64,000 nt of DNA. Origin: Parafrankia discariae (GTDB lineage: Bacteria; Actinomycetota; Actinomycetes; Frankiales; Frankiaceae). The translations under genes and the position numbers were made by a program. Positions 39,723 to 42,002 of this stretch are shown in pieces. The stretch is taken from contig NZ_KB891241.1 in assembly GCF_000373365.1 (NCBI RefSeq), positions 62,001 to 126,000 of the forward strand, read 5' to 3'. Positions within the stretch are counted from its first letter, which is position 1. Each line of letters starts with the position of its first letter. The notes under the pieces were generated by a model, which was not told the origin of the DNA, searched no databases, and worked only from the letters and a program-made list of their open reading frames with translations.

Positions 39723-40169
39723 CCAGGGCCGGGCGTCGCGGCCACCGAGGGCGGTAGGCGGGGAGGCGGGCTCCACCGTGCGGGCGCGTCCCGCGCTGAG
39801 CTGGGCCGAGGGGCGGGTGGGGGCCGGCGTCGCCGGTCCGAGGAGTGGCCACCGCGGCCGGGTATCATCGTCACGGAGTCCGTTGGTCGGTGCGTTCCCG
39901 GCGCTGTGGGGTTTTGGCGGTTTGCCTCAGCGTCATAGGTGTCAGGTGCGTATCCGGTGGCGGTCGGGTGGCGGTCGTTCGGTCGACCTCTCACCGTTCA
40001 CGGGCTCAGTTCGCACGCCCACTCCCGGCACTGACCGGGAGGGCCTCCTCGGTCCGTCGCCTCGCGGCGGCCATGGCCATCCGGGCGTCAGGGGCTCCGG
40101 CTTTCCGTCGGGGCCGTCACAACCGAGGCGTCCCGGCCGGCGGGCCGGGCGGGAAGGGAGCGACGGATC

Positions 40170-41135
40170 ATGGCCGTCGTCACCATGAAGCAGCTCCTTG
40201 AGAGCGGCGTGCACTTCGGGCACCAGACCAAGCGCTGGAACCCGAAGATGAAGCGCTACATCTTCACCGAGCGCAATGGCATCTACATCATCGACCTCCA
40301 GCAGACGCTGTCGTACATCGACCGCGCCTACGACTTCGTCAAGGAGACGGTCGCCCACGGCGGCACCGTCCTCTTCATCGGGACGAAGAAGCAGGCACAG
40401 GAGGCGATCGAGGAGCAGGCCCAGCGGGTCGGCATGCCCTTCGTCAAGGAGCGTTGGCTCGGCGGGATGCTGACCAACTTCTCCACGGTCTACAAGCGGC
40501 TCCAGCGGCTCAAGGAGCTCGAGGAGATCGAGCTGACCGGTGGCACGGAGGTGCGGACCAAGAAGGAGCAGCTCGTCCTGACCCGGGAGAAGGCGAAGCT
40601 CGAGCGCACCCTCGGTGGTATCCGCGACATGGCCCGCGTGCCGAGCGCGGTGTGGGTCGTGGACACGAAGAAGGAGCACATCGCCGTTGGCGAGGCCCGC
40701 AAGCTGGGCATCCCGGTCGTGGCGATCCTCGACACCAACTGCGACCCCGACGAGGTCGACTACCCGATCCCGGGCAACGACGACGCCATCCGCAGCGCCG
40801 CGCTGCTGACCCGTGTCGTCGCCGACGCGGTGGCCGAGGGCCTGATGTCGCGGGCCGGCGCGTCGAGCAACGCCGAGGCCAAGCCGGAGCCGTCCACCGG
40901 CGAGGAGCCGCTCGCCGAGTGGGAGCAGGCCCTGCTGCGCGGGGACACCACGGCCGAGGCGCCCGCCGCCCCGGTGGCGACCGAGACCGCCGAGCCGACC
41001 GAGACCGCCGAGCCGACCGAGGCGGTCGCCGCTGTCGAGCCGGCCGCTGTCGAGCCGGCCGCCGTCGAGCCGGCCGCTGTCGAGCCGGCCGCCCAGGAGC
41101 AGCCCCAGCCGGACGCGGTCGGCACCGCCGTCTGA
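40170..41135 (+). CDS. rpsB: 30S ribosomal protein S2
   Basis: S2 completes small-subunit assembly and helps bind S1. The 321-residue protein starts [20 protein letters not shown] and includes [49 protein letters not shown] and [20 protein letters not shown]. The core ends near residue 230. The C-terminal 90 residues are an Ala/Glu/Pro tail with TAEPTE and AVEPA repeats (15-bp units in DNA). GGGAAGGGAG lies 8 to 17 bases upstream of the ATG. A 20-bp hairpin follows, before tsf. Confidence 0.97.
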
Positions 41136-41156
41136 TCTGACACACCCTGGTCTCAC

Positions 41157-41200
41157 ACGGGTTCTCCGGGGGGCGTTGTCACGCCCCCCGGAGAACCCGT
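41157..41200 (+). terminator. 20-bp perfect hairpin between rpsB and tsf
   Basis: ACGGGTTCTCCGGGGGGCGT (41157-41176) is followed by the loop TGTC and its exact complement (41181-41200). It starts 21 bases after the rpsB stop. With no T-tract downstream, it may be a terminator, an attenuator giving more S2 than EF-Ts, or an mRNA stabiliser. Confidence 0.7.
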
Positions 41201-41387
41201 TCCAGCCCCGACAGGGCCGTCCGGGTGACTGTCGGGGCGGGGGCGACCTCCGGAGGACGGCCGCCGACCGCCGCGGGCGGGCGACGGCGGTCCCGGGGGC
41301 GCTTCCGCGCGGCGGCGTCGCGTGTGTTTCGGCGCCGAGGCAGCACGCCCACCATCGCCAGCAATCGGAACTGACGAGAAGAGCACC

Positions 41388-42002
41388 ATGGCAGACATCA
41401 CAGCCGCCGACATCCGTAAGCTCCGGGAACTGACCGGCGCGGGGATGAGCGACGTCAAGAAGGCGCTCGTCGACCACGACGGTGACTTCGAGAAGGCCAA
41501 GTCCTGGCTGCGCGAGAAGGGCCTCGCGCAGGTCGCCAAGCGGGCGGGCCGCAGCACGGCGAACGGGCTGGTCGAGTCGTACCTGCACCGCACCGACCCG
41601 CAGCTCCCGCCGACGCTCGGCGTGCTCATCGAGCTGCGCTGCGAGACCGACTTCGTCGCCAAGACCGACGACTTCAAGCAGCTCGCGCGGGACCTCGCCC
41701 AGCACATCGCCGCGGCGGACCCGCTGTACGTGACCGCCGAGCAGATCCCGAACGAGGTGATCGAGCAGGAGCGGAAGATCTACGAGGCGGCCGCCCGCGA
41801 AGAGGGCAAGAACGACAAGGCCATCCCGAAGATCGTCGAGGGCCGGGTCAACGGGTACGTCAAGAGCGTCGTCCTGCTGGACCAGCCCTGGGTCAAGGAC
41901 GGCAAGCTGACGATCCGCGCGCTGCTGGAGCAGGCCGGGTCCGCGCTGGGTGAGAAGATCGAAGTGGGCCGGTTCGCCCGGTTCAACATCAAGCAGGCCT
42001 GA
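41388..42002 (+). CDS. tsf: Elongation factor Ts
   Basis: EF-Ts releases GDP from EF-Tu. The ATG at 41388 gives 204 residues starting MADITAADIRKLRELTGAGM, with the UBA-like DVKKALVDHDGDFEKAKSWL and the core ELRCETDFVAKTDDFKQLAR. The C-terminal subdomain is short (ALGEKIEVGRFARFNI), so this is the compact form seen in many actinobacteria instead of the longer E. coli form. rpsB-tsf order is universal; here a strong hairpin separates them. Confidence 0.97.
   Translation: MADITAADIRKLRELTGAGMSDVKKALVDHDGDFEKAKSWLREKGLAQVAKRAGRSTANGLVESYLHRTDPQLPPTLGVLIELRCETDFVAKTDDFKQLARDLAQHIAAADPLYVTAEQIPNEVIEQERKIYEAAAREEGKNDKAIPKIVEGRVNGYVKSVVLLDQPWVKDGKLTIRALLEQAGSALGEKIEVGRFARFNIKQA

Follow-up and report, generated by a model that had tools for sequence, protein, structure and literature searches.

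A long hairpin without a U-tract between rpsB and tsf in Parafrankia: selected pairing and a probable role at the end of the rpsB message

In Streptomyces coelicolor, the genes for ribosomal protein S2 (rpsB) and elongation factor Ts (tsf) are described as a bicistronic operon (PMC1779546), and tsf is reported to be expressed at half the level of rpsB (PMC1779546, citing Hoogvliet et al. 1999). According to the same source, an inverted repeat of 16 bp that precedes tsf and resembles one in E. coli has been suspected of attenuation (PMC1779546, citing Hoogvliet et al. 1999). More generally, transcript ends in Streptomyces often lie at very stable stems with few U residues (PMC8269248, PMC8914203, PMC12207403). 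In S. clavuligerus, for instance, 535 transcript 3' ends were reported as highly structured, 353 of which have fewer than three U in the 8 nt past the stem (PMC8269248), and Streptomyces terminator hairpins in general are said to show covariation (PMC12207403). These strong but U-poor 3' ends are possibly trimmed Rho-dependent ends (PMC8269248, PMC8914203). In mycobacteria, U-less termination has been described, and a study whose title states that a U-tract is required is cited alongside (PMC12288462). No mention of rpsB, tsf or a stem-loop was found in the text of PMC8780764.

Here, we analyse the corresponding spacer of Parafrankia discariae within a stretch of 64,000 nucleotides, referred to as the window, whose numbering is used throughout. 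We describe a perfect 20-bp hairpin (H1) behind rpsB, its evolution within the genus, its counterparts in other actinomycetes and a structured RNA upstream of rpsB, and discuss what these elements may do.

The hairpin and the evolution of its pairing

The rpsB gene (40170–41135, + strand), an open reading frame recognized by Pfam (PF00318 Ribosomal_S2, E=7.4e-100), encodes ribosomal protein S2 (uS2) with 321 aa and has its stop codon at 41133–41135. It is followed by tsf (41388–42002, +; PF00889 EF_TS, E=1.4e-36), which starts with an ATG at 41388 and encodes a short, 204-aa form of elongation factor Ts, and then, by Pfam, by AA_kinase and RRF genes, the first of which we take from its position to be pyrH. 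The tsf gene is essential. In the 252-nt spacer between rpsB and tsf, H1 occupies positions 41157–41200 (+) and starts about 21–22 nt past the rpsB stop codon. Its arms (41157–41176 and 41181–41200) pair at 20 of 20 positions (100% complementarity) around the 4-nt loop TGTC. In a preliminary description the arms were called identical over 20 bp with a 4-base loop; length and loop hold, but the arms are reverse complements of each other.

H1 had also been described as the longest hairpin noticed in the window, and for perfect stems with short loops this is borne out: an inverted-repeat scan with loops of 3–10 nt yielded 13 distinct perfect stems of at least 10 bp, and the runner-up has 14 bp. 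Nine imperfect inverted repeats (22–37 nt, 70–91% complementarity) outrank it in the window scan. When the window was dinucleotide-shuffled 100 times, its longest perfect stem was 11.0 bp on average and 14 bp at most, and a shuffled window had a mean of 3.1 perfect stems of at least 10 bp. Likewise, the fold of the rpsB-tsf spacer is more stable than those of all 200 dinucleotide shuffles (z −5.5). H1 does not stand by itself in the spacer, as the predicted fold has a second stem-loop (H2; 41205–41238, +) 4 nt behind it, with a 10-bp outer and a 3-bp inner stem. A stem-loop also comes next after H1 in the spacer folds of the genus mates, most clearly in L008 and L009 (14-bp stem), with the exception of L006, where the H2-equivalent stretch is paired otherwise in the minimum-energy fold.

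The long stem-loop is present in all six genus genomes and begins 15–22 nt past the rpsB stop codon. With hand-anchored stems, a test that took in all six, 103 of 105 H1 pair cells are paired, and 11 of the 20 pairs show changes on both sides relative to the window; a TCTCC/GGAGA-like core has changed less than the rest of the stem. A MAFFT-based test was restricted to four of the six genomes, since the outer arm was judged misaligned in EUN1f and G002. It gave six H1 pairs with both-sided changes, compared with a mean of 1.5 in shuffled alignments, none of which reached as many (0/500), and with 0–1 in a slid-partner control. Given that pairs were kept through compensatory changes, the pairing of H1 is under selection in Parafrankia. 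The six sequences are few and related, which makes this evidence strong rather than broad.

No further copy of H1 was found in the genome; besides the reverse complement of H1 itself, the search gave two matches, both short and weaker, to the stretch past H2. With this single occurrence, we reject a repeat-family element. An Rfam search gave no match to H1 at the gathering threshold, and with E values up to 5 returned only two miRNA models, far under their cut-offs, one of them covering H1. A known RNA family is thus rejected for H1 and likewise for the leader of rpsB, which has no match at gathering either. Further downstream, the genus alignment reveals an imperfect dyad (H3; 41314–41338, +), whose sequence is conserved in all six genomes; it occurs once in the genome (up to 3 mismatches), and we reject it as a regulon operator on this ground. 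The last 36 nt ahead of tsf are also conserved within the genus.

Several features of the two genes themselves deserve a separate mention. The C-terminal end of rpsB contains four near-identical 15-base repeats (41031–41090) coding for VEPAA units, and its stop region (41131–41140) carries a 5-base tandem duplication (TCTGATCTGA) in the window that is absent from the five other genus genomes. Of the 33 parsed Frankiaceae, 31 have the short 204-aa form of EF-Ts, which also occurs in two genomes from outside the family (L040, L041); the protein has 271–281 aa in the other 33 members of our class sample and 275–276 aa in L039 and L038. In an EF-Ts tree, the short form clusters with actinomycete long forms and away from 14 short forms that belong to other phyla, which argues against transfer from those short forms, and the tree lends no support to a foreign origin.

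Gene ends, related spacers and promoters

The placement of H1 was compared with that of stems behind other genes of the same genome. The comparison covered contigs C140 and C141, which together make up 364 kb or about 4.6% of the genome and in which a gene caller of our own making predicted 271 genes. Perfect stems of at least 10 bp within 100 nt past the stop codon were scored at 270 predicted ends; the counts are reconstructed from percentages, and a stem common to a convergent gene pair is scored for both genes. Such stems occur at 10 of 70 convergent ends, at 9 of 93 tandem ends with gaps of at least 150 nt and at 6 of 47 with gaps of 40–149 nt, or 25 of 210 together. At tandem gaps below 40 nt, where the 100 nt are mostly coding, the count is 0 of 60, and in coding controls it is 1 of 600. 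Among the 270 gene ends, H1 ranks second in stem length and fourth in energy, and by this pattern of placement it is one of the ordinary gene-end hairpins of its genome. The same genome has one longer perfect hairpin, of 23 bp with a loop of 4 nt (G000:C140:37464-37513, L141), behind a gene for a LeuA-like synthase (Pfam HMGL-like and LeuA_dimer).

The 16 longest gene-end stems are followed by at most three T in 8 nt, and H1 by a single T in 8 nt. A rule for terminators with a U-tract accordingly found no terminator-like site at H1, and a canonical (L-shaped) intrinsic terminator is rejected for want of this tract. By contrast, H1 has the sequence anatomy of U-less (I-shaped) gene ends: a strong stem (20 bp), a loop of 4 nt, a distance of no more than about 50 nt from the stop codon and no U-tract.

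Within the Frankiaceae, 33 spacers were parsed from 35 genomes; L020 and L031 were omitted, as no rpsB was found in the available stretch. Defining a strong hairpin as a 50-nt hairpin with a z-score of −2.5 or lower, a measure that is blunt at 75–79% GC, we found one in 23 of the 33 spacers, while 10 fell short; the spacer of L026, which contains N and poly-G, is unreliable. In 18 of these 23 spacers, the best hairpin starts no more than 70 nt past the rpsB stop codon; in five (L012, L017, L019, L022, L023), it is more than 90 nt away. Several spacers of genus g2 have a clear fold just past the stop codon, yet remain under the z threshold. In genus g7, perfect stems of 16, 19 and 23 bp are found whose sequences are unrelated. 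Genus g6, on the other hand, seems to be without a strong stop-proximal hairpin, since two of its five spacers are under the threshold and the best hairpins of the other three are separated from the stop codon by about 100 nt or more.

Outside the Frankiaceae, we sampled 35 genomes in 16 families, with one spacer per genome; they were hand-picked for taxonomic spread among the best-scoring matches listed (296 genomes searched) and are therefore not a random sample. In this hand-picked set, 25 of the 26 spacers of at least 80 nt contain a hairpin with z −2.5 or lower, the sole exception being L059 (43% GC). All 25 hairpins begin 72 nt or less past the rpsB stop codon, and the number of T in the 8 nt behind them never exceeds four. 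Nine of the 35 sampled spacers are shorter than 60 nt, and none of the six that were long enough to test has a hairpin. As the hairpin is weak, distant or missing in some Frankiaceae, in g6 and in short spacers, it is not essential to the rpsB-tsf operon.

A predicted −10 element of the rpsB promoter, TATCAT (39863–39868, +; context CCGGGTATCATCG), was located by motif search. The pattern TA[TG][CG]AT, which was written after examples had been seen, is present in all 17 Frankiaceae leaders examined, at most 450 nt ahead of rpsB; the 18th leader (L038), not included in this count, has a different TANNNT. The more general TANNNT occurs within 300 nt upstream of rpsB in 12 of 18 leaders, compared with 4.8 expected, even though the box of the window itself sits farther upstream and is missed at this distance. 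In the rpsB-tsf spacer, the same test, which is blind to other promoter types, shows no excess (4 of 33 Frankiaceae, 6.7 expected), and none of the six genus spacers contains the motif. The rpsB promoter is thus predicted to be conserved, and tsf to have no evident promoter in the spacer, which suggests that tsf depends on read-through. Of the parts expected of an rpsB-tsf attenuator, the hairpin and the gene order are present, and co-transcription is suggested by the lack of an evident spacer promoter.

A structured leader upstream of rpsB

A conserved structured RNA lies upstream of rpsB at 40000–40130 (+). Of 393 class genomes, 32 contain its exact core pattern, each of them once: 31 of the 35 Frankiaceae and a single genome from a different family. 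In all listed rows of a backwards-read control, the count was 0. We then built a covariance model from 26 Frankiaceae sequences. With a cut-off of E 0.01, it matched 62 of the 393 genomes, 31 of them among the 35 Frankiaceae and 31 among the 358 genomes outside the family; with strict filters, it gave no match in 327 non-Frankiaceae genomes. All 31 non-Frankiaceae matches end 51–111 nt ahead of GVHFGH-like rpsB codons, a position that was not used in the search. In an alignment of 56 sequences, which was fitted to the model and thereby favours the model's own pairing, 92.6% of the cells are paired and the covariation score is 0.376, compared with 0.042–0.080 in slid and 0.120 in shuffled controls. 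A candidate pseudoknot would join CUCGGU (40048–40053) with ACCGAG (40122–40127); as both strands are nearly invariant, covariation is uninformative there.

The closest described RNA is the rpsB motif, which consists of P1, two inner stems and a J2-3 strand that pairs with a 3' extension, and which section 6 of PMC2704228 lists for proteobacteria, cyanobacteria and some Firmicutes, with actinobacteria unnamed in that section. The leader shares with it P1, the inner stems and a strand between them that is complementary to the 3' side, but has an extra covarying helix around the second inner stem and another hairpin between P1 and the 3' strand. Since these additional helices depart from the published layout, the leader only resembles the rpsB motif. 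Neither the window nor eight related loci gave a match to the leader in Rfam 15, which may not include the rpsB motif. The accessible article texts of the literature searched, including PMC7247131, PMC10931766, PMC8470358 and PMC6429828, yielded no actinobacterial S2 leader; supplements lay outside this search.

The leader is a possible uS2 operator and may matter more than the hairpin. A rather speculative extension, to which we give only modest weight, would make leader and hairpin a two-part stoichiometry device of the actinomycete rpsB-tsf operon: a uS2-binding leader, an actinomycete relative or analogue of the rpsB motif, would repress rpsB translation when S2 is in excess, and the lost coupling of transcription to translation would let H1/H2 stop more polymerases. 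Excess S2 would then also lower tsf, and in the unrepressed state the hairpin would fix a constant ratio of rpsB over tsf.

Readings of the hairpin and comparison with known systems

We think it probable that H1, with H2 behind it, forms RNA 3' ends in the rpsB-tsf operon, either by terminating part of transcription or by blocking RNases, and thereby keeps tsf below rpsB. Transcription would begin at the predicted conserved promoter ahead of rpsB, and a very stable stem would form in the nascent RNA past the rpsB stop codon. Part of the polymerases would halt at H1/H2, intrinsically without a U-tract or with the assistance of NusG/Rho, and the stem would block 3'-to-5' exonucleases, such that a stable rpsB-only RNA builds up. 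Polymerases that read through would yield the rpsB-tsf message, and the output of EF-Ts would stay below that of S2. The anatomy fits such a leaky barrier at the end of rpsB, which lets the essential downstream gene be read. We infer that transcripts end at H1 and that read-through feeds tsf, and the same applies to the size of the effect.

Partial termination that sets the S2/EF-Ts ratio and protection of the rpsB message, the two roles first proposed for the hairpin, remain the leading ones: the selection on pairing, the placement, the recurrence and the lack of any sign of a separate tsf promoter speak for them. The claim of partial termination needs qualification, because H1 has no U-tract and the literature represented in PMC12288462 is split on whether such hairpins terminate; the same idea has been put forward for S. 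coelicolor (PMC1779546).

A less probable but serious alternative is that H1 is purely a stabiliser or processing site. The dicistronic RNA would be cut downstream, H1 would stop the exonucleases and the tsf part would decay faster, with no termination involved. H1 lacks a U-tract, the strong U-poor ends of Streptomyces may be trimmed Rho-dependent ends (PMC8269248, PMC8914203), and selection has acted on the pairing more than on the letters, as an exonuclease block would predict. Since the stabiliser predicts the same anatomy as partial termination, there is no direct argument against it, although strong stems are also found at convergent gene ends, where termination would be expected. Sequence alone cannot separate a polymerase stop from an RNase stop at H1.

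It appears unlikely that H1 is a full terminator, with a monocistronic rpsB message and a tsf promoter in the spacer, perhaps at the dyad 41314–41338. The spacer of 252 nt is long for an operon, and both this dyad and the 36 nt ahead of tsf are conserved in the genus; yet TANNNT is absent from the genus spacers and not enriched in those of the family, whereas the −10 box of rpsB is conserved, and the operon of S. coelicolor is described as bicistronic (PMC1779546). Given the turnover of its sequence, it is far less likely still that the inverted repeat serves as a DNA operator bound by a dimeric protein. Such an operator has been proposed for rpsB-tsf of Spiroplasma citri, where a protein was reported to bind downstream of rpsB (cited in PMC1779546). 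The TCTCC/GGAGA-like core is indeed steadier, but letters have changed on both sides in more than half of the pairs within one genus, and the hairpins of other genera are unrelated in sequence. A chance palindrome without a role hardly comes into question: the GC-rich genome is rich in weak hairpins, as the stems in shuffled windows illustrate, but a 20-bp stem arose in 0 of 100 shuffles, the covariation already contradicts chance, and the hairpin recurs in other genera.

As a hairpin that probably forms 3' ends, H1 can be set beside three described systems. With the U-less, I-shaped terminators of GC-rich actinobacteria it shares the long GC-rich stem, the short loop and the position less than 50 nt from the stop codon; it differs in lying inside a likely operon ahead of tsf, and termination is only predicted for it, within a class that is itself disputed (PMC12288462). 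Because H1 has no U-tract and precedes tsf, it is well suited for testing whether, in GC-rich bacteria, a hairpin of this U-less kind terminates transcription, stalls it or does no more than protect the RNA. It likewise resembles the HS-U-lack or structured non-motif 3' ends of Streptomyces Term-seq studies (PMC8269248, PMC8914203) in its strong stem-loop with few U, but those are mapped RNA ends, while H1 is known from its sequence. Our own additions are the compensatory changes of the stem within Parafrankia and the spacer survey, neither of which we found in the literature searched.

The closest counterpart is the spacer repeat of S. coelicolor, which lies between the same two genes, upstream of tsf, and for which partial attenuation was proposed; it has 16 bp, as against 20 perfect bp and a second hairpin in Parafrankia. 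H1 is a new, longer example of the arrangement already suspected there (PMC1779546). Since almost every one of the longer actinomycete spacers in the sample has a counterpart of H1, an old suggestion from a single Streptomyces becomes testable across a class.
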